Assembly: GCF_030505195.1 (NCBI RefSeq)
Contig: NZ_CP129672.1
Span: 5,738,501-5,802,500 of the forward strand
Source of the DNA: Comamonas testosteroni
Lineage (GTDB): Bacteria; Pseudomonadota; Gammaproteobacteria; Burkholderiales; Burkholderiaceae_C
Direction of reading: 5' to 3'
DNA length: 64,000 nt
Shown: positions 42,225 through 63,130 of the stretch, one piece after another
Layout of the letters: each line of letters starts with the position of its first letter
Numbering within the stretch: position 1 is the first letter of the stretch
Position numbers and translations under genes: made by a program
The notes under the pieces: model-generated
The model's input: the letters and a program-made list of their open reading frames with translations, nothing else
What the model was told of the DNA's origin: nothing
The model's database searches: none

Positions 42225-43568
42225 TCAGCTGGCGCTTTGGATGTCGAACAGTGTATCTGCACGTTCCAGCGCCCACAGTTGAGCAAGTAGGTTCTTAGCG
42301 CCCGTAACACCTATCACCGGCTCCGATAGCTCCAGGAACTTGCTTGTTAGTTCTGCATCGGACAGCGGTAACTCCGGGTCTCCCTTGCGGTTGGGCTGCA
42401 GGTGCACAAGCTTAGCACCGCTATGGGTGGTGATCTCAACACGCGCCGACCGCTGGCCCGGAAATGCAGCGTCGATCTCGGGGTCCACGCGCGGTTCGAT
42501 GCGGGTCATCAGCTCGCGCACACGCGTATCCTCCAGTTGTGCAGGGTCGTAGGCAGCCAAGCGCACGCTGCCACGTGTCAGCGCCGTAGCGACGACGTAA
42601 CGAAGGCTGAAGCGGGCTTCGTTGGCGCTGGCCGGATTCTCGTAACAGGCTATGTCCAGTGCAGGCCGGTAGGTGTCCACACGAACACGGGCAATGTCCT
42701 CGGCATGCAGGCCGTGCTTCTCACGTAGCTCCAATGCGCCATCTATGGCAGCGAAAGTGTGGCCGCAGCCGATATGGTTCTTGAAGGTCAGTCGCGTGAT
42801 GTGAAAGTCGCTCCCAAGCGTGGCGCCGACCTCTGACCAGTCCGGACCGTTGCTCATGGCTTGACCCAGGCCTGACTTCCCGTCCAGCACGTCCAACGAA
42901 CCAGTCACGCCGCGCGCTGCCATCTGCGCAGCCAAAAGCCCCCCCTCGGCTGCACGACCCGCATGCAACGGTTTGGACATGGAATCCATGCGAAAGGCCT
43001 GCTGTAGTCCCGCCGCGAATGTTGCGGCCGTGGCCAAGGCATGTGCGAAAGGCCGCGCACCCAAGCCCAACACGCCAGCGGAAGCTGCGGCCGCGCCGAA
43101 GGTGCCAACCGTACCTGTGTTGTGCCAAAAGCGGTAGTGCGGACGTCCCATAACCACACCAATGCGGGTTGAGACCTCGTAGCCCAGCACCAGCGCACGC
43201 AGGAAGTCCAGACCACTGACACCGGCGTCCTGGCTGGCCGCCAGGGCCGCAGCGATGGTCGCTGCGCCGGGATGGTACATGGCGTCGCGGAAGCTGTCGT
43301 CCACCTCAGCTGCATGGGCTGCTGTGCCGTTGTACAGTGCGGCAGCGCGAGCCGTGGCGGTGCGGCCATTGCCCAGTCGAGCGCGTCCATGGTCCAGATC
43401 CTCGGCCAAAACCTGTTCGAGCTGAGCAAGAGGGGCGGCCGCCAGACCGGGGAACAGCGAGGCGTACCAGTCGATTACGGCACGTTTGGCATGGTGGACC
43501 ACCTCGTCGGGCAAACGGGTGCCTTGGAATTGCTCAGCATACTGGCCGAAGACTTCTGTGGCGTACAT
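42225..43568 (-). CDS. MmgE/PrpD family protein
   Basis: 447 residues from ATG 43566-43568, preceded by GAAGGAGATCC. N-terminal helical domain with AKRAVIDWYASLFPG and YNGTAAHAAEVDDSFRDAMYHPGA, a His/Asp-rich segment lining the active-site cleft of 2-methylcitrate dehydratase (PrpD) and cis-aconitate decarboxylase relatives. The second domain has HIGCGHTFAAIDGALEL and SVRLAAYDP. Catalyses hydration, dehydration or isomerisation of a tricarboxylate-like substrate. As last gene of the minus-strand cluster it probably handles an acidic intermediate. Substrate not predictable; 2-methylcitrate itself is unlikely without prpB/prpC neighbours. Confidence 0.88.
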   Translation of the reverse strand: MYATEVFGQYAEQFQGTRLPDEVVHHAKRAVIDWYASLFPGLAAAPLAQLEQVLAEDLDHGRARLGNGRTATARAAALYNGTAAHAAEVDDSFRDAMYHPGAATIAAALAASQDAGVSGLDFLRALVLGYEVSTRIGVVMGRPHYRFWHNTGTVGTFGAAAASAGVLGLGARPFAHALATAATFAAGLQQAFRMDSMSKPLHAGRAAEGGLLAAQMAARGVTGSLDVLDGKSGLGQAMSNGPDWSEVGATLGSDFHITRLTFKNHIGCGHTFAAIDGALELREKHGLHAEDIARVRVDTYRPALDIACYENPASANEARFSLRYVVATALTRGSVRLAAYDPAQLEDTRVRELMTRIEPRVDPEIDAAFPGQRSARVEITTHSGAKLVHLQPNRKGDPELPLSDAELTSKFLELSEPVIGVTGAKNLLAQLWALERADTLFDIQSAS

Positions 43569-43582
43569 GGGATGGATCTCCT

Positions 43583-44410
43583 TCAATCGAGGTGAGGGGC
43601 TGCTAGCCATTTGCTAAGTAGCATGTCGATGGCTGCAGCGGATTCGTACTGAACCCAGTGGCCTGCGTCTGGCAGGGTGGCAGTGATGCAGTGTGGGTGG
43701 CAGGCAGCCAAGGCTGGCGCAAGCGACACCGGATCGGCGGTCACGTCGTGCTCTCCCCAGACCAGCAGCAGGCTTGGCGCCGTGCGGCTCAACAGAGCCT
43801 GCAAGCCACCGGATCTAGAGATGGGCTTGCTACGAAAGCGTGTGCGTAGGCAAGCATCGGTATGGATTTGCAAGGCCTGTTCGTCGACGCTGGCCTCGGC
43901 GTGCAGCATGTGGGCCAGCAGGTTGTGCCTCATGGCTTGATTCAAGGCCTGTGTGTCACCCATTTGCGCATGGACACGCCAATCCAGCAACTCGGCCTTA
44001 GGACGACGAATGCCTCCGTGGCCAACGACACCCAGAAGCGCAAGGCGGTCCACGTCGCCTCGGCTTGCAGCGAGGTGCGCCGCCATCAAGCCGCCGAAGG
44101 AAAAGCCTCCCAAATCGATGCGTGTACCTGTGCCCAGCAGAATCGTCAGGGAACTATCCAGACGTTCCAGAAGAGCCTTCACCGTCGACTCATCGGTCGG
44201 GTCAGAGTCTCCGTAACCTGGCATATCGGGCACACAGACCATACGCTGTTCGGCTAAAGCCTGGATGTTTCGAATCCAGTGCCTCCATGTTCCATGGCCA
44301 CCGTGCAGCAGCACCAAGGGACGGCCATGGCCGAATATTCGCCAGGCCACACGGCCTCCGTGGCTGTCCACCATTTGGAGCTCCTGCTGCCGTTCGAGCG
44401 CGTGCGTCAT
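43583..44410 (-). CDS. Alpha/beta hydrolase
   Basis: 275 residues from ATG 44408-44410 (an AAGG-type ribosome site precedes it). The fold's landmarks are all present: oxyanion strand VLLHGGHGTWRHW, nucleophile elbow GGFSFGG (Ser), acid in VWGEHDVTADP (Asp) and His in LPDAGHWVQYE. The cap-domain sequence is typical of C-C bond or lactone hydrolases, but no subfamily is certain. Ends 15 bases before the MmgE/PrpD start, so the two are co-transcribed. Confidence 0.85.
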   Translation of the reverse strand: MTHALERQQELQMVDSHGGRVAWRIFGHGRPLVLLHGGHGTWRHWIRNIQALAEQRMVCVPDMPGYGDSDPTDESTVKALLERLDSSLTILLGTGTRIDLGGFSFGGLMAAHLAASRGDVDRLALLGVVGHGGIRRPKAELLDWRVHAQMGDTQALNQAMRHNLLAHMLHAEASVDEQALQIHTDACLRTRFRSKPISRSGGLQALLSRTAPSLLLVWGEHDVTADPVSLAPALAACHPHCITATLPDAGHWVQYESAAAIDMLLSKWLAAPHLD

Positions 44411-44744
44411 ACGGCCTTGATGGATTGAGCCCTGATCACCTGGCGCGACTTGCATAACGCCAAGTTGGCAGCGGTGCCTTGTAGCAGCCTACGACGCAGT
44501 GCCGAGAGGGTCTTTGTTGAGTTTCGTTTCATTCAAGGGTTTCCTGTATTTCCGGGCGGCACGCCACGGCGTGAGGGCCTGTTCATACTTGCTCCCGTAC
44601 CATAGGGAAGAGCACGGTGCTGACGTCTGTACACATGTACGCTAGGCGTCCTCGGCTTTACGACGTTCGCGGCAGGTGCTGACCTCAGTTATGCCTGTAT
44701 CTACTCGATGCCAAAATTGGAGTGATGCTTCTGCACCGTCAAAT
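44411..44744. other. 334-bp gap between two hydrolase genes
   Basis: No gene supported. A GTACA-CA-TGTAC dyad lies at 44629-44640. It may hold a separate promoter for the 44410-42225 gene pair. Confidence 0.45.
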
Positions 44745-45575
44745 TCATGTGGTGTCGGATGTGGCACCTACCGTGCTGTCAAGAAACATGCGCAAGGAGC
44801 GGTTGAAGCGCTCTGGCTGCTCGATACAGGTCATGTGTGCCGCGTCTGCGATCACGGTTAGCGTGGATTGGGGTAGGTTGCGGTGCATCTCCAGCGAGGC
44901 AGCCAGCGGCGTGCCGATGTCGTGCTCTCCAACGATCACAAGCGCTGGGCAGTCGATCCGGGGGAGATCTTCCGTGGTATGCACCGACGAGATGGCTGCG
45001 CAGGCACCGGTCCAACCTTCGATGGTGGTAGAAGCGATGACGCGTGCCACGTCCGCCACAGCCGCGGACTCTGCCTCGCGGAATGCGGCCGTGAACCAGC
45101 GCCCGATGGCCGGATCCACAAGGGGCGCAATGCCCTGGGAGCGAGCGACACGGATGCGTTCGTCCCAGACCGATTGGGGTGTCGCGTCGTGCTGACTGGT
45201 GGTATCGGCAAGTACAAGTGCCTGCACGCGATGCGGGTACTTGAGCGCAAAGGTCTGGCCAATCATGCCGCCCATGGAGAAGCCGATCCAAGTGACCACC
45301 GTGATGCCAAGATGGTCCATCAGTTGTGCGACGTCATCGGCTAACTGGTCTAACGTGTAGGGAGCCTGGCCGGCACCACTGCGTCCGTGCCCGCGCGTGT
45401 CGTAACGAAGCACGCGATAGCGCTCGGCCAGTGCTGCAATCTGAGCGTCCCACATGGAAACGTCGCAGCCGAGCGAGTGAGAAAGCAGCAGCCAGGGGCC
45501 GCGCGTTCCGTCGATGGTGTAGTGGATGGCCGGGGCACCAGCCGGTTCGAACATGCTCATTGGGTCTGCTTTCAT
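44745..45575 (-). CDS. Alpha/beta hydrolase, 3-oxoadipate enol-lactonase (PcaD)-like
   Basis: 276 residues from ATG 45573-45575, overlapping the Bug-receptor stop by four bases (ATGA). Landmarks: LLLSHSLGCDVSMWDAQ, RYDTRGHGRSG, nucleophile GFSMGG, acid VIVGEHDIGTP, His in DAAHMTCIEQPERFN. The N-terminal third reads closely like PcaD. In this setting it probably opens a lactone to a keto or unsaturated acid before CoA activation. Not linked to pcaC/pcaB, so beta-ketoadipate itself may not be the substrate. Confidence 0.82.
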   Translation of the reverse strand: MKADPMSMFEPAGAPAIHYTIDGTRGPWLLLSHSLGCDVSMWDAQIAALAERYRVLRYDTRGHGRSGAGQAPYTLDQLADDVAQLMDHLGITVVTWIGFSMGGMIGQTFALKYPHRVQALVLADTTSQHDATPQSVWDERIRVARSQGIAPLVDPAIGRWFTAAFREAESAAVADVARVIASTTIEGWTGACAAISSVHTTEDLPRIDCPALVIVGEHDIGTPLAASLEMHRNLPQSTLTVIADAAHMTCIEQPERFNRSLRMFLDSTVGATSDTT

Positions 45576-46588
45576 TGCGCGGTAATGTTTGCTGCCTTAG
45601 CGATGCGTGCGTACTTAGCTACTTCCGATTCAATTAGTTTTTGAAATTCGGCGGGAGTGCCGGCCGCCACCTTCACGCCCATGTCGGCCAGTTGCGCCTT
45701 TACCTGCGGCAGGCGCAGGACGTTATTGATGTCCTTGTTCAGTTGGGCGACTACCGGCGCAGGGGTCTTTGCAGAGGCCAGCAACCCGTACCAGAAGCTC
45801 CATTCGTAGCCTGGCACGCCGGCCTGTGCAGTGGTAGGCACGTCTGGCATCTCGGCGATGCGTGAGGCTGAAGTCACCGCCAGCGCACGCACCCGCCTGT
45901 CCTTAACCATACCGACAGCCGAGACGTAGGGCGCGATATGAAACTGCACGCGCCCGGCGATGGTTTCGGTCATCGCCTCGCCCACGCTCTTGTACGGAAT
46001 GTTCACGGCCTCGATGCCAGCCTGTTGGCAGAACAGAGCGGCTGCGAAGTGCGAGCTGCTTCCCACTCCTGCCGACGAGTAACTGACCGAACCAGGGCGC
46101 GCCTTAGCCTGCGCCACTAGCTCCGACAGCTTCTTGGCGGGAAGGTCCTTGGGCACCACGATCAGCGCAGGGCCTTCGCCGATTAGCGTGACCGGGGCGA
46201 AATCGCGCAGCGTGTCGTAGCCTGGGTTGCGGAAAACGGCCGGAGCCGTCGCATGGGCAGGCGACACGCTGAGCAAGGTGCTGCCGTCGGCCGGAGCGGC
46301 CAGTACAGCGCGTGCCGCCAGCGTTCCGCCCACGCCTACCTTGTTCTCCACGATGGCCGGCAGCCTCCAGCGTTCGGACAGGGTCGCAGCGATCAAGCGC
46401 GCAGCCGCATCGGGCACACCGCCCGCGCCGAAGCCCACGATGAAGCGGTAACTGGCTAGAGCCGGCGCCGGAAGTTCGCTGCCGACAGGTGACTGCGCCC
46501 AAGCCGGAGCTGCGGCGCAGGCGATGCCGGCCGGTACACACTTAAGCAGTGCGCGGCGCGACGGAGTATGAACAGAGGTGTAGGGCAT
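45572..46588 (-). CDS. Bug-family tripartite tricarboxylate transporter receptor
   Basis: 338 residues with a twin-Arg-like signal peptide (SRRALLKCVPAGIACAAAPAWA). The mature protein has FIVGFGAGGVPDAAARLIA, IVENKVGVGGTLAA and VNIPYKSVGEAMTETIAG. These match the Bug fold except that the usual P-x-x-P-G-G start is less strict here (GFGAGG). It should bind a carboxylate in the periplasm. No TctA/TctB membrane genes accompany it. First of two receptors in the minus-strand unit to lie inside the enzyme genes. Confidence 0.88.
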   Translation of the reverse strand: MPYTSVHTPSRRALLKCVPAGIACAAAPAWAQSPVGSELPAPALASYRFIVGFGAGGVPDAAARLIAATLSERWRLPAIVENKVGVGGTLAARAVLAAPADGSTLLSVSPAHATAPAVFRNPGYDTLRDFAPVTLIGEGPALIVVPKDLPAKKLSELVAQAKARPGSVSYSSAGVGSSSHFAAALFCQQAGIEAVNIPYKSVGEAMTETIAGRVQFHIAPYVSAVGMVKDRRVRALAVTSASRIAEMPDVPTTAQAGVPGYEWSFWYGLLASAKTPAPVVAQLNKDINNVLRLPQVKAQLADMGVKVAAGTPAEFQKLIESEVAKYARIAKAANITAQ

Positions 46589-46612: not shown

Positions 46613-48715
46613 TTAAGGCAATCTGGTTGGGATTGCACGGGGACTTCCCGCGTTAGTCGGTGCCAGCAGTAGGTCTCGCGAGTCGCCGACTCTACTTGCG
46701 GGGCCGCTGATCTCGGCCAGCCAAGCAAAATCTTCTCGCAGTCCGGCTTCGCTGCGTTCGCGGGCCCAAAAAACCACGCCGCCTTCCCAACGCGGGAAAC
46801 CGTAGCCATTGACCAGAGCTAGGTCCACATCGGTGGCATAGACCGCAACTCCTTCGGCCAGGAGCAGTGCGGCCTCGTTGGCAAGGGCCAGTAGCGCACG
46901 GCGCACGATTTCTTCGTCAGTAATGACACGCGGTGCGATACCCTTGTCAGCCCGTGCCTGCTCGATTAGCACATGCACTGCCGGGTCCACCGCCGGCTTA
47001 CCACCCTCTGCATAGGCGTAGTAACCAGCGCTAGTCTTTCGTCCCAGCCGGCCGGCCTCGCACAACCGGTCGGCTATGTCAACGTAGCGCGTTTGCGGAT
47101 CGCGTGTTGCTGCCTGGGCCTGGCGCATGCGCCAAGCAATATCCAGTCCAGACAGGTCGGCCACCGCAAATGGGCCCATGGCGAAGCCAAAGCGCTGCAG
47201 TGCTGCGTCCACCTGCTCAGGCCAAGCGCCCTCCTCGACTAGGAACTCGCACTGGCGCCGGTAAGCGGCATACAGCCGGTTGCCGATAAAGCCGAAGGCA
47301 TTGCCGGTCAGCAGCGGCAGCTTGCCGAGCCTCTTTGCCACAGTCAGCCCTGTGACTAGAACGTCAGGCGCCGACGCCTGGCCGCGCACGACTTCCATGA
47401 GCCGCATGACGTTGGCCGGACTGAAGAAATGCAGACCAACCACGTCCTGTGGGCGCGACGTAGCTGCAGCGATGGCGTCCAGGTCCAGGTATGACGTGTT
47501 GCTTGCAAGCACAGCACCGCGCCGGGCCACAGAATCGATGCGCTCGAACACCTGCCGCTTGACGTCCAGATCCTCGAACACGGCCTCGATCACAAGGTCT
47601 GCCGAGGCCAGGTCGTCCCATCGCAAGCTGCTGCGTAAACGCCCGTGGCGCGCCTGGGCTGTATCGGACGCCATCTTGGCTGCGCGCACACGGCCAGCAT
47701 AGTGGTCCTGGATGCGAGTTGTTCCACGTTCCAGCGCCACACCGTCCTGCTCCAGCAGCAGCACTTCGTAGCCAGCATCCAGTGCCGCGATGGCAATGCC
47801 GGAGCCCATGGTTCCGGCGCCGATGACTGCAATGACCCGCACTGAACGCGGTGCTACGCCGGCCAGCGAAGGATGTTTGGCGCTCTCACGCTCGGCGAAG
47901 AACTGATAGCGCAGAGCTGAGGCTTCGCGCGAACTGCGCAACTGCTGGAACACTGCGCGTTCGTCGGCTAGCGCGGTGTCGAAGTCGTGCACAACCGAGG
48001 CCTTGATGGCTTCGATCGCCGCAACTACGGCAGGGCGGTACTTGCCAGCTTTCAGTGCGGCTGTGGCAGCGTCTTCCACGGCTTTGGGCTCGGCCGGAGG
48101 CACGGAACGATCTCGCAAGCGCCGCTTACGCCCTACCAGGCTTCGTGCCAGGGCCAGCGCCTCAGAGCGAAGCTCGCCTATGGCCTCGGCGTCGATAAGG
48201 CCGGCAGCCAAGGCGGATGGGCTCTTAACCCGCTTGCCGCTGCAGATCATTTCTATGGCGCTAGGTACGCCGACCAGACGCGGCAGGCGCTGGGTGCCGC
48301 CCGCGCCCGGAATGATGCCCAGCGTGACCTCTGGCAGGCCGACAACGGTGTCGGGCGCTGCGATGCGCGCATCGCAACCCAGAGCCAGCTCAAAGCCGCC
48401 GCCCAGCGCCGCGCCGTGCAGCGCGGCCACAAAGGGCTTGCTGCAGGCATCGATGGCTGCTATCACGCTGGGCAACTGAGGCTCGGCAAGCGGCTGGCCA
48501 AACTCGCGGATATCCGAGCCGGCCATGAAAGTGGTGCCGACGCCGATTAGTACGGCGGCCACCAGGCTGTCGTCGCGTGCCACTGTATCAATGGCCTGTA
48601 GAAGTCCGGCACGGACAGTCGCAGAACCGGCGTTAATGGGTGGGTTGTCGATGCCGATGATGGCGACGTCGCCGTCGCGCTCCAGGCGCACCTGGTCCAA
48701 AGGTGCGGGATCCAT
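46613..48715 (-). CDS. Bifunctional enoyl-CoA hydratase / 3-hydroxyacyl-CoA dehydrogenase
   Basis: 700 residues from ATG 48713-48715, which shares a base with the synthetase stop (TGATG). Crotonase domain 1-200, with an oxyanion pocket at HGAALGGGFELAL (Glu109) and LPEVTLGIIPGAGG (Glu129). An NAD-binding domain starts at about 293 with GAGTMG (299-304); HFFSPANVMRLMEVV and the two C-terminal 3HCDH domains follow. Both catalytic Glu residues of the hydratase and the His/Glu pair of the dehydrogenase region are kept. Same order as FadB/FadJ. Performs two consecutive beta-oxidation steps. Confidence 0.92.
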   Translation of the reverse strand: MDPAPLDQVRLERDGDVAIIGIDNPPINAGSATVRAGLLQAIDTVARDDSLVAAVLIGVGTTFMAGSDIREFGQPLAEPQLPSVIAAIDACSKPFVAALHGAALGGGFELALGCDARIAAPDTVVGLPEVTLGIIPGAGGTQRLPRLVGVPSAIEMICSGKRVKSPSALAAGLIDAEAIGELRSEALALARSLVGRKRRLRDRSVPPAEPKAVEDAATAALKAGKYRPAVVAAIEAIKASVVHDFDTALADERAVFQQLRSSREASALRYQFFAERESAKHPSLAGVAPRSVRVIAVIGAGTMGSGIAIAALDAGYEVLLLEQDGVALERGTTRIQDHYAGRVRAAKMASDTAQARHGRLRSSLRWDDLASADLVIEAVFEDLDVKRQVFERIDSVARRGAVLASNTSYLDLDAIAAATSRPQDVVGLHFFSPANVMRLMEVVRGQASAPDVLVTGLTVAKRLGKLPLLTGNAFGFIGNRLYAAYRRQCEFLVEEGAWPEQVDAALQRFGFAMGPFAVADLSGLDIAWRMRQAQAATRDPQTRYVDIADRLCEAGRLGRKTSAGYYAYAEGGKPAVDPAVHVLIEQARADKGIAPRVITDEEIVRRALLALANEAALLLAEGVAVYATDVDLALVNGYGFPRWEGGVVFWARERSEAGLREDFAWLAEISGPASRVGDSRDLLLAPTNAGSPRAIPTRLP

Positions 48716-50812: not shown

Positions 50813-51604
50813 TCATTCCTTCGCTGCAGCTTTAGCTAAAAAGGCTTCTACCGAGGCGCGGTGTTCGCTACTCGTGTAGCAGATACCTTGTGCCAGACTG
50901 CCCTGCGCGAACACGTCGTGGGACGACAACTCGAAGCTCTGATTGAGGATGGTCTTGGTCAATGCCAATGCGGTTGATGAGGCTTTGGAAAGCTCCGCAG
51001 CCCATGCCTGCGCATCGGTCAGCAAGGTGTCGGCACTGGCTTTTCGATCGACGATGCCCAAATCGAGGGCTTCGTCCACTTTGACTTGGCGCCCAGTGAA
51101 GATCAGTTCCTTGGCCTTTGAAAGACCTACGCGTCTCGGCAGAAAATACATGCCGCCGCCGTCAGGAATGATGCCGCGGTGAATGTAAGACCAGGTGAAG
51201 CTTGCCCACTCGCTGGCGATGATGAAATCGCAGGCCAGCGCAGTGTCGGCCCCCAGCCCAGAAGCTGCTCCGTTGACAGCGGCAACCACCGGTTTAGGCA
51301 TTGTGTGCAGCAACGCTTGAGTACGGTGCACACGTTGCTGACGATGCCAACCGTTAAAGCCAACTTCGCCGGCCGGTGCATTCATTCGCTTTTGCATGCC
51401 ACTGATGTCTCCACCTGCACAGAAGCCTTTTCCTGCTCCGGTGAGAACCAACGCCCTGATGCTTTTATCGGCGGCAACACGTTCCAGCGCGTCGATAAAC
51501 TCCGTGCGCATGTCATCGCTCATCGCATTGCGCTTGTCCGGACGATTCAACGTAAGCGTTGCCACCGCGTCATTGACTTGAAGTTCTATTAGGGAATAGC
51601 TCAT
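50813..51604 (-). CDS. Enoyl-CoA hydratase/isomerase family protein
   Basis: 263 residues from ATG 51602-51604, with GGAG seven bases upstream; an alternative TTG at 51616 is less likely. Crotonase fold: GAGKGFCAGGDISGM and NGAASGLGADTALACDF form the CoA and oxyanion site. The second catalytic position reads HRGIIPDGGGMYFLPR, with Asp where classic hydratases have Glu, as in PaaG-like isomerases. It may therefore isomerise or hydrate a branched or ring-containing acyl-CoA. Sits between the first Bug receptor and the synthetase. Confidence 0.88.
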   Translation of the reverse strand: MSYSLIELQVNDAVATLTLNRPDKRNAMSDDMRTEFIDALERVAADKSIRALVLTGAGKGFCAGGDISGMQKRMNAPAGEVGFNGWHRQQRVHRTQALLHTMPKPVVAAVNGAASGLGADTALACDFIIASEWASFTWSYIHRGIIPDGGGMYFLPRRVGLSKAKELIFTGRQVKVDEALDLGIVDRKASADTLLTDAQAWAAELSKASSTALALTKTILNQSFELSSHDVFAQGSLAQGICYTSSEHRASVEAFLAKAAAKE

Positions 51605-55017: not shown

Positions 55018-56007
55018 ATGAAACATTCCTTCCAACGCACGGTCAGAACGTCTCTCAAGGCGGCCACCATGTTTGCGGCCACCCTGGCCATTGGTCTCAA
55101 CGCGGCCCAGGCAGCGTTCCCTGACAAACCAGTAAAGTTAGTGGTTCCATTCGCGCCCGGAGGTGGGGCAGATCTGATCGCGCGAACGCTCGCAGTCGGA
55201 ATGTCACAAGAATTAGGGCAATCGGTCATCGTTGAAAACAAACCTGGAGCAGGCACGATCATCGGTTCGGAAATGGTTGCCAAGAGTGCTCCGGACGGCT
55301 ACACGCTACTGGTGTCCTCTATAGCGCACTCGGTCAACCCGAGTCTTATGGAAAAGCTTCCTTACGCTACAGAAAAAGCTTTCACGCCGGTGTCCATGGT
55401 GGTGCGCTCCCCAAATGTACTGGTCGTGCGCGCAAGCAGCCCGTACAAAACAGTCAAGGACATTATTGCGGCAGCCAAAGCAAAGCCCAACCAGTTGACA
55501 TACGCATCGCCTGGTAACGGAACTTCGTCTCACCTCGCTGCAGCTCTTTTTGCGGATCTGGCTAAGCTACAGATTCAGCACATCACCTACAAAGGATCCT
55601 CCCCTGCCCTCACTGATTTGCTGGGCGGGCAGACCGACATCCTGTTCGGCACATCAGGGTCTGTTGGTTCATTCATTGACAGCGGAAAACTAAGAGCGCT
55701 CGCGGTGACTTCGGCGACTCGCTCGAGCGCCTATCCGAACGTGCCAACCATGGCTGAAGCAGGTGTCGCAGGGTATGTATCGGAGGGTTGGTACGGCCTG
55801 CATGCTCCCGCCGGCACGCCTACAGCCATCATTGAACAACTCAACGCCACAATCCGTAAAGCAGCTCAGAGCGACTTCTTTAAATCAAAGTTGGTTCATG
55901 AAGGCATGGTGGCCCAAACGGGCACTCCAACCGAATACGAAGCATTTGTTCGTGCTGAGATCGCTCGTTGGTCCAAGCTCGTCAAGGCAGACGTGATCAC
56001 GAAATAA
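55018..56007 (+). CDS. Bug-family tripartite tricarboxylate transporter receptor (tandem copy 1)
   Basis: 329 residues; signal peptide cleaved near AQA (residue 32). Motifs: VKLVVPFAPGGGADLIARTL, VIVENKPGAGTIIGSEMVAK, HITYKGSSPALTDLLGGQTD. Most similar by eye to the 51639 receptor (shared GTDxxAKSAPDGY and PNVLVVR segments), so the two may bind the same or related acids. Followed by two more receptor genes at 22-base spacing. Confidence 0.92.
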   Translation: MKHSFQRTVRTSLKAATMFAATLAIGLNAAQAAFPDKPVKLVVPFAPGGGADLIARTLAVGMSQELGQSVIVENKPGAGTIIGSEMVAKSAPDGYTLLVSSIAHSVNPSLMEKLPYATEKAFTPVSMVVRSPNVLVVRASSPYKTVKDIIAAAKAKPNQLTYASPGNGTSSHLAAALFADLAKLQIQHITYKGSSPALTDLLGGQTDILFGTSGSVGSFIDSGKLRALAVTSATRSSAYPNVPTMAEAGVAGYVSEGWYGLHAPAGTPTAIIEQLNATIRKAAQSDFFKSKLVHEGMVAQTGTPTEYEAFVRAEIARWSKLVKADVITK

Positions 56008-56029: not shown

Positions 56030-57013
56030 ATGAACAAAGCAAATACTTCGCTCGTCCTGAGACTTGCTCTAACAGGCGCCTTGATTGGAATTAGCGCGAC
56101 AGCCAGTGCGCAAGACTATCCGAGCAAGACCATTCGTATGGTGATTCCCTACACTCCAGGAGGATCCATCGATACCGTTGGCAGATTGGTAGCTGACCAG
56201 TTGCAGCGCCAACTCGGTCAGCCGATTGTCATTGAAAACACGCCAGGCGCTTCTGGCCTCCTTGGCTCCATGCATGTGAAGAACGCGAAGGCCGATGGCT
56301 ACACTTTGCTGTTCAACGCCTCCAGCCAGGCGTACCTGCCGCTCGTAGTTGCCAAGAAGACCTACGACCCGCAGCGAGACTTCACTCCCGTAGCGCAGAT
56401 AGGGTACGTGCCGCTCATCGTTGCCGTCAACAATGGCGTTCAAGCCAAGACGATCGAAGAATTCATCAAATTGGCCAAAGCCAACCCTGGGAAGTTCACT
56501 TGGGCAACTTCCGGCTTGGGTACGACCAGTCACTTGAGTGAAGAAATGCTCAACCGAGCACTTGGTCTGCAAATGGAGATCGTTCCTTACAAGGGAGCTG
56601 TGCCTCAATTGACTGATGTGGTTGGTGGACATGTCTCCGCGGCGATTTCGCCTATGCCCGGGGTCACACCCTTTGTTCAGGCCGGCCGCCTGCGGCCACT
56701 GGCGGTGACTAGCAAGACGCGAGCTCCATCACTGCCAGACGTTCCGGCGCTAGCTGAAAGCACCGTCCCGGGATTCGAGTTGTTGTCTTGGTATGGCGTA
56801 TGGGGCCCAGCCAACATGCCAGTCGAAGTTACCAACAGACTGAATGCAGAGATCGCCAAGGCCGTCGAAGCACCGTCCTTAAAGACCAAATTTGCCGAAC
56901 TGTCATTTGTGCCTACAAAGTCCAGTCCCTCGCAATTTCGGCAGCTGATCGCTGAAGACTTGCTGAAAATCGGCAAAGCGGTCAAGGAAGCAGAGATTCG
57001 AATTGACTTTTAA
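56030..57013 (+). CDS. Bug-family tripartite tricarboxylate transporter receptor (tandem copy 2)
   Basis: 327 residues; signal peptide to SASA (about residue 27). IRMVIPYTPGGSIDTVGRLV, IVIENTPGASGLLGSMHVKN and IVPYKGAVPQLTDVVGGHVS define it. The ligand loop differs from copies 1 and 3 (NTPGASG instead of NKPGxGT), suggesting another substrate. A ribosome site (GGGAGA) precedes the start 22 bases after copy 1. Confidence 0.92.
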   Translation: MNKANTSLVLRLALTGALIGISATASAQDYPSKTIRMVIPYTPGGSIDTVGRLVADQLQRQLGQPIVIENTPGASGLLGSMHVKNAKADGYTLLFNASSQAYLPLVVAKKTYDPQRDFTPVAQIGYVPLIVAVNNGVQAKTIEEFIKLAKANPGKFTWATSGLGTTSHLSEEMLNRALGLQMEIVPYKGAVPQLTDVVGGHVSAAISPMPGVTPFVQAGRLRPLAVTSKTRAPSLPDVPALAESTVPGFELLSWYGVWGPANMPVEVTNRLNAEIAKAVEAPSLKTKFAELSFVPTKSSPSQFRQLIAEDLLKIGKAVKEAEIRIDF

Positions 57014-57034: not shown

Positions 57035-58027
57035 ATGTCGCACTCTGTTTTCACACGTCGCCAGGTTCTGCGGTCCGGTACAGCACTTGCCTCGGCTTCG
57101 TCACTTATAAGCTTAGAAGCCTGGTCTGCCGACAACTTCCCGACACGCACCATACGTGTGGTTGTACCGTTCGCCCCGGGCGGGGGCACCGATGTCATTG
57201 GGCGGGCTTTGCTGGAAGGAATGCAGCGGGAACTTGGAAAAGCCTTGATCATTGACAACAAGCCCGGTGGCGGCACCATCATAGGCACAGACATCGTGGC
57301 CAAATCGCCTGCCGACGGCTACACGTTGCTTCTTACGACCTCAGCTATTGCGATCAACGACTCTCTGGTCAAGAGGCTCCCCTACAAGACGCAAAAGGAC
57401 TTCACTGAAGTGGCACGGGTCTGCAGCGGGCCTAACGTCCTGGTCACTCCCCCCAACAGCCGCTTCAAAAGCATCGCTGACGTGATTGCCGCCGCGAAAG
57501 CAGCCCCCGGAAGGCTGACGTATGCATCTTCGGGCAACGGATCTGCCGTCCACTTGGCTGGCGAACTGTTCAAGACCATGGCTAACGTGGATATCACGCA
57601 TGTGCCCTACCGAGGAGCTGGCCCTGCCTACACCGATCTGATTGGCGGTCAAGTCGACCTTTTGTTCGGTACGGCGGGTGGAGTGGCAAAAATGGTTGCT
57701 AGCGGCACAATGCGACCGCTCGGCATAACCTCTCCAAAGCGCAGCGAAGCCTACAAAGGGGTTCCAGCAATTGCAGAGACCCTGCCAGGCTATGAGGCCG
57801 ATGTCTGGTACGCAGCGTTTGCACCTGTTGGCACGCCAGCACCGGTCATTTCGAAGATTAATGCAGCTCTGCGCAAAGTTGCAGAAACAAGCGCTTATCG
57901 CGAGCGCCTTGCTCGCGAAGGGTTGACCGTAGCGGTAAACACGCCGGAGCAGATGACACAGTTCATGCGCGCCGAGGAGGCACGCTGGCGTAAGGTGGTG
58001 ATCGCTGGCAAAGTCACTATCGACTGA
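57035..58027 (+). CDS. Bug-family tripartite tricarboxylate transporter receptor (tandem copy 3)
   Basis: 330 residues. The signal has a twin-Arg-like start (FTRRQVLRSG), unlike copies 1 and 2, so export may go through Tat. Core motifs: IRVVVPFAPGGGTDVIGRAL, IIDNKPGGGTIIGTDIVAKS, HVPYRGAGPAYTDLIGGQVD. Twenty-one bases separate it from copy 2. Ends 43 bases before the EthD-like gene. Confidence 0.92.
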   Translation: MSHSVFTRRQVLRSGTALASASSLISLEAWSADNFPTRTIRVVVPFAPGGGTDVIGRALLEGMQRELGKALIIDNKPGGGTIIGTDIVAKSPADGYTLLLTTSAIAINDSLVKRLPYKTQKDFTEVARVCSGPNVLVTPPNSRFKSIADVIAAAKAAPGRLTYASSGNGSAVHLAGELFKTMANVDITHVPYRGAGPAYTDLIGGQVDLLFGTAGGVAKMVASGTMRPLGITSPKRSEAYKGVPAIAETLPGYEADVWYAAFAPVGTPAPVISKINAALRKVAETSAYRERLAREGLTVAVNTPEQMTQFMRAEEARWRKVVIAGKVTID

Positions 58028-58070: not shown

Positions 58071-58676
58071 ATGTCCAGTGAATTCCTTCCCACAGACATG
58101 ATTTTGCTGCGCATGCAGGGCGCGCAGCAGTCCATGATTTCCGGCCTCGAACTGCACGTGATGGCCAATCCCGTCAATGCCGAGTTGCAGGGCTCAATCG
58201 TGCGCAAAGCCTGGGCAGAGCATTCCCAAACTGCATATGTTTATCTTGCTCTGCCCCACCGTTTGTCTCTCGCGAAGCAAACATTGGATGCTCTGACATG
58301 CCCATCCAGGCCCGGCATAAGCCTATCTGCCAGTCGCATGACATTGATGGATAGCCTGACTGGAGCTAGCTTGTTAAGACAGGCGTCGTTTCACTATGTC
58401 GTGGAAACGACGCCTGAAACGGGCTGGGAGTTAGAGCTTCAGAGATGGTATGCAATGGAACATCTCCCGGGTCTTTCTAAGACTCCTGGATGCGTGCAGG
58501 CACAGAGATTCTGGAACCATGACGAAGGACCTCGGTCTTTCGCATGCTACGACCTAGTCGATGAACAAGCTCTGGCTTCACCCGAATGGCTAGCGGTCCG
58601 CGAAACTTCCTGGAGTGATCACGTGCGCCCTCATTTCACCAACACCATTCGGACCATGTTCACCATTCAGTTGTGA
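58071..58676 (+). CDS. EthD-like dimeric alpha/beta-barrel protein
   Basis: 201 residues. The C-terminal half contains WELELQRWYAMEHLPGLSKT, PGCVQAQRFWNHDEGPRSFA and CYDLVDEQALASPEWLAVRE, the arrangement of EthD/DUF4286-type stress-barrel domains with the conserved His in the EHLP motif. The N-terminal half may be a degenerate second barrel. Such proteins often assist catabolic enzymes or isomerise small substrates. Last gene of the unit, ending 22 bases from the convergent LysR gene. Confidence 0.75.
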   Translation: MSSEFLPTDMILLRMQGAQQSMISGLELHVMANPVNAELQGSIVRKAWAEHSQTAYVYLALPHRLSLAKQTLDALTCPSRPGISLSASRMTLMDSLTGASLLRQASFHYVVETTPETGWELELQRWYAMEHLPGLSKTPGCVQAQRFWNHDEGPRSFACYDLVDEQALASPEWLAVRETSWSDHVRPHFTNTIRTMFTIQL

Positions 58677-58697: not shown

Positions 58698-59597
58698 TCA
58701 AAGCGAGCGTGCTCCATTACGGAAATCCAACTCTCGTAGCAGTTTGGCAGTCTCTGCGACCAGACGTGTTGCGGGCCGAGCTCGCGGCAGTGCAAGCACT
58801 AAGAGGTTGTGAATAGCTGGCGGCCCAATCGGAGTTGCTTGGATCTCTGACCTCCTACTGCTCAGGCACAGGGCACTGTCTGGAAGAATAGAGCAAGCTA
58901 GGCCGTCCTCAACCACCGCCAATGCGGTATGCACGGCTCCTACCTCCGCAACGACGTTCAGCACGATGCGGTGGGGCAAGAGCACCGAATCCACCAGACT
59001 TCGGATCGGGTTGTGCGACCCTGGCAGCACCAACGGGAAGTCGGCCAACACCTCAAGACTCACTTGCTTCGGTAATCGGTAGCCTTTCGGCGCAACAAGC
59101 ACCATCCGCTCGCGCATCAACGGTTCATACGACAGTAGCGGCGTGGGTGCTGGATCAAATAGCAAACCCAGATCGATACGACCTGCTATTAAGCCTTCGC
59201 GCAGCGAAAGACTAAGCCCCTCGACCACGGACAACAATGCATTCGGCAAGCGACGCCGAAACTCCCGAATCAGTGGGACCCCCAAGCCCATGGCCACTCG
59301 ATTAGGCAAGCCAACGACGATTCGTCCAACGGGTTCTGAATGCATCTCCTTAAGGTCCGACAGTGCTTGGCTGGCCGCGTTGAGCATGACGCGCGCATGA
59401 GCGAGCAGCGCATGACCGGCAGCCGTCGCAGTGACCCCCCTCCCGGTGCGTTCCAACAAACGTTGTCCAAGCTCCTCTTCCAGCAAGGCTATCTGCCGAC
59501 TGACACTGGGTTGCGCAAGGTTAAGGGTCGCTGCGGCACGGCTGAAACTACCTTGCTCAGCAACAGCGACGAAGTATTCAAGCTGCCGCAGATCCAT
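58698..59597 (-). CDS. LysR-family transcriptional regulator
   Basis: 299 residues: HTH 1-60 (MDLRQLEYFVAVAEQGSFSR, LAQPSVSRQIALLEEELG), effector domain from about 92 (GRIVVGLPNRVAMGLGVPL). Divergent from the SDR gene. Its own start lies 11 bases from the motif at 59608, which is repeated upstream of the 53935 unit, so it is a good candidate to control both. CatM/TsaR-type regulators with this layout bind aromatic acid intermediates. Confidence 0.92.
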   Translation of the reverse strand: MDLRQLEYFVAVAEQGSFSRAAATLNLAQPSVSRQIALLEEELGQRLLERTGRGVTATAAGHALLAHARVMLNAASQALSDLKEMHSEPVGRIVVGLPNRVAMGLGVPLIREFRRRLPNALLSVVEGLSLSLREGLIAGRIDLGLLFDPAPTPLLSYEPLMRERMVLVAPKGYRLPKQVSLEVLADFPLVLPGSHNPIRSLVDSVLLPHRIVLNVVAEVGAVHTALAVVEDGLACSILPDSALCLSSRRSEIQATPIGPPAIHNLLVLALPRARPATRLVAETAKLLRELDFRNGARSL

Positions 59598-59607
59598 AGG
59601 AAATAGA

Positions 59608-59628: not shown

Positions 59629-59720
59629 CGAGTTTAACTTACCCCCTCAAAAGCGCAAACTGATTTCCATGCAGCAACCGCAACGACGGTTGCTCCGCTA
59701 TTTCAATGACAGGAGCAAGC

Positions 59721-60518
59721 ATGAGAAGGTTCGAATCCAAAATTGCCATCGTAACGGGCGCCGGTTGCGTCGGAGCCGGCTGGGGCAACGGTCGTGCAAT
59801 GGCCGTTCGCCTCGCCGAAGAAGGCGCCAAAGTATTGGCTGTCGATCGCGACCAGGATCGATTGAATGAAACGCTATCTCTAGCGGGCGATGCAGCCTCT
59901 TCCATCACGACCTGCATCTGCGATGTGACTAGTTCTGCAAGCGTACAAGCCATGGTCGAAGCATGTCTGTCGACTTATGGTGCCCCGGACATCTTGATTA
60001 ACAACGTAGGCGGCTCCGCTGCAGGAGGGCCAGTGCAGTTGAGCGAGGAAGCCTGGGACAGTCAGATTGACATCAACCTCAAAAGCGTCTTCCTGACCTG
60101 TAAATATGTGCTGCCACACATGGTGGAGCAAAAACGCGGCGCCATTGTCAATGTGGCGTCTACATCAGGCCTTCGCTGGACTGGCAGCGCTCAGGTTGCT
60201 TACGCCGCAAGCAAAGCCGGCGTGATCCATCTTTCTCGCGTAGTTGCCGTTCAGCATGCTCCGGATGGGATCCGCGTGAATACGGTAGTTCCAGGTCAGT
60301 TGCACACCCCTATGGTTGAGGTGCGCCTAGCCAAGCAGCGCACGGGAGGCGATGTGGAGTCTTTGCTGGCATCCCGTGTCAAGCGTATTCCACTTGGCTT
60401 CATGGGTGACGGTCGCGATACGGCCAGCGCTGCACTCTATCTCGCTAGTGACGAAGCACAGTTCATTACAGGAACGGAACTGGTCGTGGATGGTGGCATG
60501 ACTGCTCGCTGCGACTGA
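59721..60518 (+). CDS. Short-chain dehydrogenase/reductase
   Basis: 265 residues from ATG 59721-59723 (AGGAGCAAGC upstream). NAD(P) site VTGAGCVGAGWGNGRAMA, with an unusual insert in the Gly-rich loop; Asp after strand 2 (LAVDRD) favours NAD. NNVGG, catalytic Ser in VNVASTSG, YAASK with Tyr and Lys, and a VNTVVPG segment. Oxidises or reduces an alcohol/ketone of the pathway. First gene of the last plus-strand unit. Confidence 0.92.
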   Translation: MRRFESKIAIVTGAGCVGAGWGNGRAMAVRLAEEGAKVLAVDRDQDRLNETLSLAGDAASSITTCICDVTSSASVQAMVEACLSTYGAPDILINNVGGSAAGGPVQLSEEAWDSQIDINLKSVFLTCKYVLPHMVEQKRGAIVNVASTSGLRWTGSAQVAYAASKAGVIHLSRVVAVQHAPDGIRVNTVVPGQLHTPMVEVRLAKQRTGGDVESLLASRVKRIPLGFMGDGRDTASAALYLASDEAQFITGTELVVDGGMTARCD

Positions 60519-60545
60519 GCAATGCCAGTGCAAGGAGACATATTC

Positions 60546-61511
60546 GTGAACAAAAGACACATCCTCATCGCAGCGGCAGCGCTCTCGCTGGCATCTATCA
60601 GTTATGCGCAGTCCAGTGGAAAACCCGTGCGCATCATCACCTCATTCAGCGCAGGAGGTCCTGTCGATTTTGTTGCGCGTACCCTGGCCGATCAGCTAGG
60701 ACGCGAACTCAAGCGCCCAGTCATCGTGGAGAACAAGCCTGGTGCAAATGGTGCATTAGGCGCAATGGAGACCCTGCGAGGAGAAGCCGATGGGACATCT
60801 ATATGGATCACCAGTGTGGGGGCTGCAGCAATCAACCCGTCATTGCAGGAAAAGGCGCCCTACAACACACAGCGCGACTTTGCACCAGTTTCCCTAGTGG
60901 CAAACAACGTAGAAGTGTTGGTGGTCAGCTCTAAGGACCCCGCAAAGGATGCAGCGGAGTTCGTAAAAAATGCGAAGAGCATTAAGGAGTCAACACCCAT
61001 GGCTTCCTCAGGATCCGGCAGCATCCCTCACCTGGCTCTTATCCAGTTGGAAGAGTCCACAGGGGCGAAGTTCCTGCATGTCCCGTACAAAGGAATGGCG
61101 CCAGCGATGACCGACATCATGGGTGGACAGGTGAAAGGCGTTTTTGCGGACGTCGCGGCCATCATGCCCCACGTCCAAGGGGGACGTCTGAAAGCCATCG
61201 GGCTAGCAGCACAGAAGCGACATCCTTCGCTTCCAAACGTGAAAACGTTCGAAGAACAAGGTATCAAGGCTGTCGACACCAATAACTGGTATGCCTTGTT
61301 CGTGTCCGCAAAGACCTCTCCCGCCGTTGTCGAGCAACTGAACAAAGCGGTGCGTGCAGCGATCGCGAATCCAGATGTAAGTGCTAGGTTGTTGCAAGGG
61401 GGTGCAGAGCCGAAATCTTCTACTTCCCAGGAACTAGCCGCTCTGCTGAAGGCGGATACGGAAAAATGGGGCGCCATCATCAAGTCCCGCAACATCAAGG
61501 CAGATCAATGA
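60546..61511 (+). CDS. Bug-family tripartite tricarboxylate transporter receptor
   Basis: 321 residues from GTG 60546-60548, seven bases after AAGGAGA; the ATG at 60522 is upstream of that ribosome site and so not used. Signal peptide to SYAQ. VRIITSFSAGGPVDFVARTL, VIVENKPGANGALGAMETLR and HVPYKGMAPAMTDIMGGQVK are the family motifs. Stop overlaps the next start (ATGA). Confidence 0.9.
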   Translation: MNKRHILIAAAALSLASISYAQSSGKPVRIITSFSAGGPVDFVARTLADQLGRELKRPVIVENKPGANGALGAMETLRGEADGTSIWITSVGAAAINPSLQEKAPYNTQRDFAPVSLVANNVEVLVVSSKDPAKDAAEFVKNAKSIKESTPMASSGSGSIPHLALIQLEESTGAKFLHVPYKGMAPAMTDIMGGQVKGVFADVAAIMPHVQGGRLKAIGLAAQKRHPSLPNVKTFEEQGIKAVDTNNWYALFVSAKTSPAVVEQLNKAVRAAIANPDVSARLLQGGAEPKSSTSQELAALLKADTEKWGAIIKSRNIKADQ

Positions 61512-62035
61512 CGACCTCTCATATTCGCGTGCCCCTGGTGGTACCAGGCTCGAAACCTGAACTAGCTGAGGTAGAAGCGCGCATACAGTCCGAACGCGGC
61601 CGCATATCACTGCTGTATCAGGCATTGCTCAACAGCGCACCGATTGCTGCGGGATGGGAGGCTATGTTGACCGCCGTGCGCAATCGAACAGGGGTTGCGG
61701 CAGACCTGCGCGAGATGATCATTCTTCGAATTGCCGTTTTGAACGATGCAGCCTTCGAGTTCGACGCACATATCCCGCACGCACTCAAAGCCGGCTTTCC
61801 GCAGCACAAGATTGACGCGCTCAAAAGTACGACTCCAGAAGGAGTCTTCACTGAGCAAGAGTTGTTGCTACTGGAACTCACCGACCGCATGACACGCGAT
61901 GTCAAAGTGCCAGAAGAATTGATGGGGTGCATCAACGCACTCCACGATCCTCAGACAGTGGTTGAACTTGTGGCGACAGTAGCGGCCTACAACATGGTGT
62001 CTCGCTTCCTGGTGGCACTCAACATCTCGCATTGA
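61508..62035 (+). CDS. Carboxymuconolactone decarboxylase family protein
   Basis: 175 residues. Helical CMD core with LREMIILRIAVLNDAAFEFD, then AHIPHALKAGFPQHKID and a hydrophobic helix pair. It lacks the CxxC of AhpD-type peroxidase relatives (FEFDAH in that place), so a decarboxylase-like or other non-redox role is favoured. Translationally coupled to the receptor gene. Together with the LigI-like hydrolase it hints at lactone or pyrone chemistry. Confidence 0.85.
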   Translation: MTTSHIRVPLVVPGSKPELAEVEARIQSERGRISLLYQALLNSAPIAAGWEAMLTAVRNRTGVAADLREMIILRIAVLNDAAFEFDAHIPHALKAGFPQHKIDALKSTTPEGVFTEQELLLLELTDRMTRDVKVPEELMGCINALHDPQTVVELVATVAAYNMVSRFLVALNISH

Positions 62036-62227
62036 AGCACGCAAGCACCCTCAACCAGAGCGAGCAAGCCGTCGCAAGCTCGATCGCTGCTCCTTCAATG
62101 GGGTAGTGCTTGGAGCCCAGCCTGCCCCATGAGCTCGCTAATGGCCTAACACCATCGAGGTTCAAAGCTTGATGGTGTACCAATTGACGCCTAAGCGCTC
62201 CCCCTGCTCAACTCACCATTGCCCTGT

Positions 62228-63130
62228 ATGTCTGCCCTGACCTCCGACTCTGCTCTCCCTGTACGTACCTACCTGGAACACCCGACGGCACCAAAGTTGC
62301 GCCTGCCCCCACAGGCATGCGATAGCCATGTCCATGTTTTAGGACCTGTTGCCCGATTCCCCTACAACCCCCAGCGTCGGGCTACCCCAGTTGAGGCGCC
62401 TAAGGAGACGTTGTTTGCCTTGCATCGTCAAATGGGCATCGAACGTTGTGTCATCGTTCAGTCGATAACACACGGCACAGACAACCGGGTTGTCGAGGAT
62501 GCAATTGCTGCGGGAGAGGGGCGTTACCTCGGTGTTGCACTGGTTGATCCAGACATCCTCGACACCGAGCTTCAACGCCTCGCACAGGTGGGCTTTCGCG
62601 GCGTGCGCTTTAACTTCATGAGACATATCGACGGCGGGGTTACCGTCGACAAAGTCTTAGCGCTTACGCCACGCCTTGCAGCTGTGGGGATGCATTTGCA
62701 GGTGCATTTTGAAAGCGAACTGATTCATGAACTTGCCGAGCCCCTGCAACGCAGCCATGTACCGGTAGTGATTGATCATATGGGACGCGTAGACGCTACG
62801 CGTGGGGCTAGCCATGCTGATTTTCAAGCACTTCTCAAACTGCTAGACAATGGGAAGTTCTATGCAAAAGTAAGTGGAATTGACCGTATTGATGCCCATG
62901 CACCTCCGCAGCAACGCTACCGCAACGGAATAGCACTGGCACGCACACTTTTAGAGCGCTTTCCAGAGCGCTGTGTTTGGGGGACAGACTGGCCCCACCC
63001 CAATCACACACACATTCCCGACGATGGAATACTAGTTGATTCACTGTCTGAAATAGCTAACAACTCCAATCTTCTTGAACACCTACTTGTCAAGAATCCG
63101 CAGGCGCTTTATCGATTTCAGGCGCATTGA
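62228..63130 (+). CDS. Amidohydrolase 2 family, 2-pyrone-4,6-dicarboxylate hydrolase (LigI)-like
   Basis: 300 residues from ATG 62228-62230. ACDSHVHVLGP at the N-terminus gives the metal pair His-x-His; then GIERCVIVQSITHGTDNRVV, GFRGVRFNFMRHIDGG, PVVIDHMGRVD and the catalytic Asp in WGTDWPHPNHTH. The whole pattern mirrors LigI, which opens pyrone or lactone rings and does not strictly need metal. 4-Sulfomuconolactone hydrolase is an alternative. It closes the last catabolic unit. Confidence 0.87.
   Translation: MSALTSDSALPVRTYLEHPTAPKLRLPPQACDSHVHVLGPVARFPYNPQRRATPVEAPKETLFALHRQMGIERCVIVQSITHGTDNRVVEDAIAAGEGRYLGVALVDPDILDTELQRLAQVGFRGVRFNFMRHIDGGVTVDKVLALTPRLAAVGMHLQVHFESELIHELAEPLQRSHVPVVIDHMGRVDATRGASHADFQALLKLLDNGKFYAKVSGIDRIDAHAPPQQRYRNGIALARTLLERFPERCVWGTDWPHPNHTHIPDDGILVDSLSEIANNSNLLEHLLVKNPQALYRFQAH

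Follow-up and report, generated by a model that had tools for sequence, protein, structure and literature searches.

What does a bacterium do with a locus that brings together six receptors of the Bug (TctC) type, lactonase-like hydrolases and enzymes of beta-oxidation, and do these genes serve one purpose? The question is raised by positions 42225-63130 of a 64,000-nucleotide stretch (the whole of which is referred to here as the window) within the 6.08-Mb genome of Comamonas testosteroni. The locus is a real, recurrent catabolic cluster, made from known kinds of parts, whose pathway is unassigned. A sequence-only reading of the window had been unable to match the combination to a named pathway, and in agreement with this no report tying the gene set to one was found in the open-licence literature, where absence proves little. 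The interpretation favored here, which is given an even chance of being right, is that the genes form a composite catabolic island with a patchy distribution, whose separately regulated units serve one class of organic acid, probably an unsaturated or ring-derived one, with uptake by Bug receptors and TctAB followed by lactone opening, coenzyme A (CoA) activation, isomerization and beta-oxidation. The analysis documents gene content, family membership, conserved sites, recurrence and modularity. From these we infer the order of the steps, the transport partner and the service of two of the units, A and B, in one pathway.

The catabolic genes are drawn as three units, modules A, B and C. All of the enzymes named by the sequence-only reading (acyl-CoA synthetase, crotonase, fusion protein, MmgE/PrpD, PcaD-like, LigI-like, carboxymuconolactone-decarboxylase-family [CMD] and short-chain dehydrogenase/reductase [SDR] proteins) proved to be as described when compared with Pfam and NCBIfam, and all six of its receptors are present and match PF03401 far above the cut-off. 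The genes at 43583-44455, 52903-53700 (IclR), 53935-54768 and 58698-59597 (LysR) and the open reading frame without a Pfam match at 58071-58676 were not on its list. Its extent of 42225-63130 holds for the genes inside, but the cluster runs about 6.5 kb past the end of the window.

Module A (42225-53700)
42225..43610, minus strand, mmgE1, MmgE/PrpD family (PF03972/PF19305)
43583..44455, minus strand, abh1, alpha/beta-hydrolase (PF00561)
44407..44532, minus strand, Bug remnant, recognized by comparison with Comamonas genome G050
44745..45575, minus strand, PcaD-like lactonase (TIGR02427)
45572..46588, minus strand, Bug receptor 1 (PF03401)
46613..48748, minus strand, enoyl-CoA hydratase/3-hydroxyacyl-CoA dehydrogenase fusion (PF00378, PF02737, PF00725)
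48715..50808, minus strand, acs, ADP(NDP)-forming acyl-CoA synthetase (PF13380, PF13607, PF13549)
50813..51616, minus strand, ech, crotonase (PF00378)
51639..52616, minus strand, Bug receptor 2, leading its unit (PF03401)
52903..53700, plus strand, IclR regulator, divergent from Bug receptor 2 (PF09339/PF01614)

Module B (53935-63130)
53935..54768, plus strand, abh2, alpha/beta-hydrolase without nucleophile (PF00561)
55018..56007, plus strand, Bug receptor 3 (PF03401)
56030..57013, plus strand, Bug receptor 4 (PF03401)
57035..58027, plus strand, Bug receptor 5 (PF03401)
58071..58676, plus strand, orf201 (no Pfam or NCBIfam match)
58698..59597, minus strand, LysR regulator, divergent from the SDR gene (PF00126/PF03466)
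59706..60518, plus strand, SDR dehydrogenase (PF13561; nearest solved chain 5jc8, a putative SDR)
60522..61511, plus strand, Bug receptor 6 (PF03401)
61466..62035, plus strand, CMD protein (PF02627)
62219..63130, plus strand, LigI-like amidohydrolase (PF04909)

Module C (window end to about window position 70550, about 6.5 kb beyond)
63634..64000, plus strand, LysR-like gene at the start of the module, leaving the window (to about 64554); an open frame named by inspection only
Beyond the window, by Pfam: acs2, Bug receptor 7 (PF03401), acyl-CoA dehydrogenase, mmgE2

Recurrence and modularity of the cluster

The surroundings of acs were compared in 70 loci, taken from a scan of species genomes with acs and scored with gene-specific identity cut-offs; 33 of the loci are at least 22 kb long and many are short. 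By title they are mostly from Burkholderiales, including freshwater and soil Variovorax, Hydrogenophaga, Limnohabitans and Polynucleobacter. The core of module A recurs in them (crotonase in 59, Bug receptor 2 in 56, IclR in 51, MmgE in 35 and the fusion in 24), while other genes are rarer (abh1 in 19, a counterpart of the module C acyl-CoA dehydrogenase in 10, abh2 in 6, SDR in 5, CMD in 4 and LigI-like in 2). Owing to coverage limits, the layouts leave out weak or short matches. Counting the genome of the window itself, an acs orthologue of at least 84% identity is found in 7 of 53 genomes of the genus, and acs is found at E 1e-250 in 30 of 299 genomes of the family. Variovorax loci L003 and L005-L007 have modules A and B next to each other, as do two Variovorax plasmids (L079 and L080) and Cupriavidus plasmid L081, and the modules also occur together in Acidovorax (L018), two metagenome-assembled genomes (L023 and L027), Comamonas genome G051 and family genome G104. 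The cluster is found as well in records titled Pantoea sp. (L021, probably mislabeled) and Akkermansia muciniphila (L010, a metagenome-assembled genome of doubtful title).

The closest tie between the modules is that of abh2. At E 1e-60 it is present in 4 of the 299 family genomes (own genome included), and in all four it lies 3.0-4.8 kb from acs; the copy in G104 is only 45% identical. The chance that all four abh2 genomes fall among the acs genomes is 8e-5, or 8e-4 for three of three when the own genome is set aside, neither value being corrected for phylogeny. On plasmids, where contexts were inspected for 8 of 14 records, the four closest relatives of abh2 (44-80%) are all within 12 kb of a relative of ech. 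Relatives at 35-43% identity occur in other contexts, which indicates that the family is wider than this pathway. The LigI-like gene behaves differently: relatives at 49-50% lie 10 and 15 kb from acs in G296 and G104, respectively, and matches occur in 174 family genomes when no 59% limit is set, but among close homologues linkage to acs is rare, as set out below. As judged from these comparisons, abh2 is tied to module A and the LigI-like gene is not.

Several observations weigh against a single island. Two blocks of Comamonas genome G050, with DNA identities of 93.0 and 97.1%, together match window positions 42238-53811, and module B is absent from it; in the 80 kb taken from it there is no match longer than 300 bp outside that interval, so module A works without module B somewhere. 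Genes of module B are found in only 7 of the 70 acs loci (4 of the 33 that are at least 22 kb long), and pcaD at 55% identity or more is in only 4 of the 70. The LigI-like gene, at 59% or more, occurs in 18 of the 299 family genomes (own included), and acs occurs in 7 of these 18. In only two of them, the own genome and G287, are the two genes no more than 12 kb apart; in G051, G181, G271 and G120 they are on different contigs, and in G266 about 290 kb separates them. Two plasmid loci with the crotonase-ligase pair (L087 and L088) have no MmgE/PrpD gene in the 18.8 kb fetched, and no thiolase is encoded in the island (thiolases were not looked for elsewhere in the genome). An alternative is that of two or three unrelated catabolic operons (A under IclR, B under LysR, C under a second LysR) that are neighbors by chance, each with its own substrate and Bug receptors. 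This explanation is a serious minority possibility, to which the solitary module A of G050, the scarcity of module B genes and the loose placement of the LigI-like gene lend support. Against it stand the position of abh2 beside acs in every family genome that has it, the proximity of its closest plasmid relatives to relatives of ech and the linkage of A and B in the loci named above, which is kept despite gene orders that vary between genera. The proposal of one island made by the sequence-only reading is thus weakened, although abh2 keeps its place beside module A; by genome comparison the island is composite, as A and B part company in other genomes. Base composition favors neither reading, since the step in guanine-plus-cytosine content falls inside module A (acs 62%, ech 55.5%) and not at the A/B border. 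The content is 62-64% in bug1, the fusion and acs (45572-50808) and 55-56% in ech and bug2 (50813-52616), and it is then low throughout module B.

Active sites and the proposed route

The enzymes of module A retain well-conserved sites. The acyl-CoA synthetase has an SHTGA motif in 70 of 70 aligned sequences. Ech carries Asp124 and Tyr144 at the places where the hydratase Glu pair would sit, and Asp152 within a PDGGG stretch, in all 59 sequences aligned. The roles given to residues of Ech, the fusion and the LigI-like protein (the hydratase Glu pair, the PaaG-type Asp) are our assumption. On that assumption the site of this stand-alone crotonase looks like the isomerase type, as in PaaG-type isomerases, with which it shares the Asp in PDGGG, the lack of the Glu pair and a score of 188.4 bits with TIGR02280; 1,2-epoxyphenylacetyl-CoA isomerase is among its solved relatives, though not the top match. 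It differs from PaaG in falling below the cut-off of that model (345.15), and no other paa-type genes are among those scanned around it. The fusion protein has both hydratase Glu residues (120 and 140) in 24 of 24 aligned sequences together with a 3-hydroxyacyl-CoA dehydrogenase domain, but its scores fall well short of the equivalog cut-offs for FadB and FadJ (with FadJ, 402.6 bits where 869 are required). No acyl-CoA dehydrogenase is encoded in modules A or B, while module C has one. This lack and the isomerase-type crotonase suggest that the substrate of module A probably arrives already unsaturated.

The remaining module A enzymes are hydrolases and an MmgE/PrpD protein. Abh1 has an apparently complete catalytic set, with Ser119 in 13 of 13 aligned sequences and Asp237 and His266 in 12 of 13, the remaining row being gapped there. 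The PcaD-like protein passes the TIGR02427 equivalog cut-off (266.2 against 255.85 bits) and its Ser, Asp and His are conserved in all five sequences aligned. The active-site-like motifs of MmgE1 are invariant or nearly so across 29 aligned sequences. Its nearest solved relative is IDS-epimerase (145 bits), followed by proteins of the cis-aconitate decarboxylase type (98-119 bits), and it reaches at most 37.9 bits against the 950 of the PrpD (2-methylcitrate dehydratase) equivalog.

The serine-less hydrolase Abh2 is the most interesting piece of the cluster. Its nucleophile elbow reads GHAWGS, with Ala109 in place of the catalytic Ser, and it therefore lacks the Ser, Cys or Asp found at the elbow of serine alpha/beta-hydrolases. 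Ala109, Asp227 and His253 are present in 120 of 120 homologues (the best 120 of 1347 found) and in all 7 sequences of a separate alignment of the window protein with six relatives at 35-46% identity, from Aminobacter, Rhizobium, Phyllobacterium, Thioclava, Comamonas and Cupriavidus. The fold is predicted to be that of an ordinary alpha/beta-hydrolase (pLDDT 87.5; TM about 0.75 to esterases and bromoperoxidases). Abh2 thus shares the predicted fold and the triad Asp and His of the bromoperoxidase/arylesterase type but has an Ala nucleophile position in every member sampled. No description of an alanine-nucleophile family of this kind was found in the open-licence literature, where absence proves little. 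The nearby orf201 encodes 201 residues, and not one of its 64 homologues carries a Pfam domain. In its model (pLDDT 96) two ferredoxin-like halves make up a tandem alpha+beta barrel, the second half containing a conserved WY..EH.P stretch, and its Foldseek matches include putative monooxygenases, HmoB, chlorite dismutase/coproheme decarboxylase and chalcone isomerase (TMq at most 0.65). The ferredoxin-like fold class hosts cofactor-free monooxygenases and muconolactone isomerase, and for this reason an isomerase or oxygenase role for Orf201 is possible. A tentative extension, itself a minority possibility, is that the cluster represents an undescribed Burkholderiales pathway whose entry step would be carried out by the nucleophile-less Abh2, a new kind of enzyme with the alpha/beta-hydrolase fold, through His-Asp base catalysis, as a lyase, an isomerase or a cofactor-free oxygenase, perhaps with Orf201.

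The sequence-only reading had spoken of lactone/pyrone enzymes. Enzymes of the lactonase type are indeed present, but the pyrone part is weakened by the LigI-like protein. This protein scores about 230 bits with LigI (4d8l) and retains R124 and R217 as well as the catalytic H31, H33, H180 and D248. The positions that correspond to LigI R130 and Y156, which we take to be the residues that bind the substrate carboxylates, are both His. In 14 island-type sequences position 156 is always His, and at position 130 there are 12 His, 1 Arg and 1 Lys; these sequences are the island protein, five cluster proteins (L007, L079, L080, L027 and L081) and those of eight of ten further loci (L127-L134), omitting L126, which is the same gene as that of the island, and L135, whose frame is broken by an internal stop. 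The host has a second copy of the LigI type at 5.23 Mb, in an operon with LigK and subunits of protocatechuate 4,5-dioxygenase, and that copy, probably the host's hydrolase of 2-pyrone-4,6-dicarboxylate, keeps R130 and Y156. This location and the two His residues suggest that the island enzyme is probably not the hydrolase of 2-pyrone-4,6-dicarboxylate, and a pyrone route through that compound was rejected. Relative to LigI and 4-sulfomuconolactone hydrolase, the island protein shares the catalytic residues and differs at positions 130 and 156; with the sulfomuconolactone hydrolase model it reaches 208.6 bits against a cut-off of 500. The A/B cluster of Variovorax plasmid L079 showed no PcaD, but between its Bug genes (17224-18627) lie an SMP-30-type lactonase and a second CMD protein, and another lactonase thus occurs in the same setting.

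Put in order, the route would begin with the Bug receptors capturing an acid in the periplasm and passing it to a TctAB pair that is encoded elsewhere, the genome having one such pair without an adjacent tctC. The SDR, CMD-family, LigI-like and PcaD-like enzymes would process and open an intermediate of the lactone type, and MmgE/PrpD probably epimerizes, dehydrates or decarboxylates an acid intermediate. The ADP-forming ligase would then make the CoA thioester, the PaaG-like crotonase would move its double bond, and the hydratase/dehydrogenase fusion would yield a 3-oxoacyl-CoA, to be cleaved by a thiolase from elsewhere or by Abh1. This largely keeps the earlier suggestion of acid uptake, ring opening, CoA activation and beta-oxidation, for which lactonase-type, CoA-activating and beta-oxidation enzymes are present. 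No recognized oxygenase is among the 20 frames of the region scanned with Pfam, so the locus, to the extent that these families reveal it, does not encode the cleavage of an aromatic ring.

Receptors, membrane partners and competing routes

The genome has 112 matches to PF03401, 111 of them above the cut-off (one of these with internal stops), but only two TctA (PF01970) and two TctB (PF07331) genes, located at 1.24 and 1.65 Mb. Whole-genome profile matches place neither PF01970 nor PF07331 near the island, as the sequence-only reading had noted for its 21 kb, and the island therefore has the TctC-type receptors of a TctABC system without TctA and TctB encoded alongside. The absence had been presented as a novelty, an idea that was dropped: many Bug receptors without Tct membrane genes is the ordinary, already known state in such bacteria. 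Published systems are cited here from passages of the sources named. Orphan Bug receptors are described in Bordetella, with expansions in Cupriavidus and Comamonas (PMC5812351, PMC5994714), 130 tctC genes in Variovorax paradoxus TBEA6 (PMC8102459) and a tandem array of nine tctC-type receptors in Rhodoplanes (PMC5994714, PMC5812351, PMC8102459). The island resembles these expansions in having many receptors, few membrane pairs and receptors beside catabolic genes, and differs only in placing six or seven receptors around one enzyme set. The starts of the seven receptor genes span 21.3 kb, and nowhere else are the 112 packed as densely. At least seven within 22.5 kb arose once when genes were placed uniformly 3000 times, but 70 times in 3000 when tandem blocks were moved as units, so that the clustering by itself is only mildly unusual. 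The enzyme set is more clearly concentrated: two of the three MmgE/PrpD genes of the genome lie within the cluster A-C (mmgE2 is 55% identical to mmgE1), as do two of the three full-length NDP-forming acyl-CoA synthetases (acs2 is 37% identical to acs), a fourth PF13607 match being a frame of 307 residues.

The tctAB pair at 1.24 Mb adjoins a tctC gene. The pair at 1.65 Mb (L075, G000:C1:1651312-1653351), which answers the earlier suggestion to look for orphan tctAB elsewhere, has no tctC within 9 kb (the nearest is about 9.4 kb away) and is flanked by a type II secretion ATPase gene and a DUF3422 gene. It is a candidate for the common membrane partner of the orphan receptors. A comparable arrangement is that of terephthalate uptake in Comamonas sp. 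E6, where TphC pairs with TpiBA and tph and tpi are separate operons (PMC5812351, PMC8556258). The two are alike in having a Bug gene in a catabolic operon, first behind a divergent regulator, and a membrane pair placed in another operon; the island differs in that it is without terephthalate dioxygenase genes, has several Bug receptors and relies on CoA-dependent enzymes where the terephthalate system has an oxygenase route. On an Agrobacterium plasmid, a crotonase relative of 58% identity is accompanied by annotated MmgE/PrpD, CoA transferase, TctC, TctA (in pieces) and TctB, while on a Paraburkholderia plasmid the crotonase-ligase pair is accompanied by a helix-turn-helix regulator and a major facilitator superfamily (MFS) transporter, with no Bug gene in the stretch fetched. 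These transporter neighbors support a role of the Bug proteins as uptake receptors for the substrate of module A. The contrast between Agrobacterium and the Burkholderiales is the same as that reported for arylmalonate decarboxylase clusters, whose receptors are orphans in beta-proteobacteria but belong to complete systems in alpha-proteobacteria (PMC5812351).

Some of the Bug proteins could instead be sensors or scavengers, a role suggested by the presence of seven of them for so few enzymes and by the discussion of a sensory function for binding proteins of tripartite tricarboxylate transporters (PMC5994714). This is unlikely, as the regulators of the island are cytoplasmic IclR and LysR proteins, the scan of island genes showed no sensor kinase (there is one outside the island, at 36838-38259) and the related Agrobacterium cluster has all of TctA, TctB and TctC. 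With regard to the chemistry, a variant of the beta-ketoadipate pathway would make PcaD a true 3-oxoadipate enol-lactonase, have the CMD protein decarboxylate a carboxylactone and replace PcaIJ by the ADP-forming ligase. The equivalog-level PcaD match fits such a scheme, as does the best NCBIfam match of the IclR regulator, the PcaR/PcaU/PobR model (101.1 bits, below the cut-off of 284.75). It is nonetheless quite improbable: no pcaB, pcaF, catB or ring-cleaving dioxygenase is among the frames scanned (the search did not extend to other parts of the genome), none of the PcaC models recognizes the CMD protein at E 0.001, and the rarity of pcaD in related loci shows that it is not core. A route of the itaconate/aconitate type, in which MmgE/PrpD would act like cis-aconitate decarboxylase on a Bug-imported tricarboxylate and the product would be CoA-activated and hydrated, draws on the relationship of MmgE1 to such decarboxylases and on the binding of citrate by TctC (PMC5812351). 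It is very improbable, as MmgE1 is nearer to IDS-epimerase, no CitE-type lyase is among the island genes scanned and the lactonases would be left unexplained. Two further candidates were rejected. The cluster for thiodipropionate degradation of V. paradoxus TBEA6 differs, as described in passages of PMC6370202 and PMC8102459 (mdo, act, acdA, ech-20/30), and for a ferulate-type CoA route there is no hydroxycinnamoyl-CoA hydratase-lyase model among the best 25 NCBIfam matches listed for the crotonase.

Gene boundaries, surroundings and meaning of the island

Comparison with G050 also bears on gene boundaries. Where the window has the Bug remnant, G050 has a full-length Bug gene, and about 880 bp of G050 are missing at window position 44452/44456; in the remnant (44407-44532) the first residues of the gene are fused in frame to its last residues. 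The N-terminal residues of Abh1, as framed from 44455, overlap this remnant, and the true start is probably internal, near 44410. For Bug receptor 6, the internal GTG at 60546, which the sequence-only reading had given as its position, is perhaps a likelier start than 60522. A sigma-70 scan was uninformative, giving 1 promoter-like site against 7.0 expected, and 22 terminator-like sites against 16.6.

Positions 1-33000 of the window are, by content, an integrative conjugative element. Its features include:

10760-13006, TraD/TraG-type coupling protein
18689-21559, TraI-type relaxase/helicase
31693-32892, tyrosine integrase

About 9 kb separates the integrase from the catabolic genes that follow it, and nothing was found that ties the conjugative element to the island. 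Between the two, at 36838-39593, a histidine kinase gene (36838-38259) and a sigma-54 response regulator gene are located between two MFS transporter genes. Beyond module C (L073, 7028-17508) are a KAP-like NTPase (a weak match, below the cut-off) and, by eye, outer-membrane-efflux-like and RTX-repeat-like frames, none of which is part of the island.

By record title, the core of module A occurs in many freshwater and soil Burkholderiales, and its substrate may therefore be a common environmental acid that is not on pathway maps. The island offers a small number of testable enzymes, receptors that could report the substrate and a family of serine-less hydrolases, and it provides a test case for how one TctAB pair serves many receptors.

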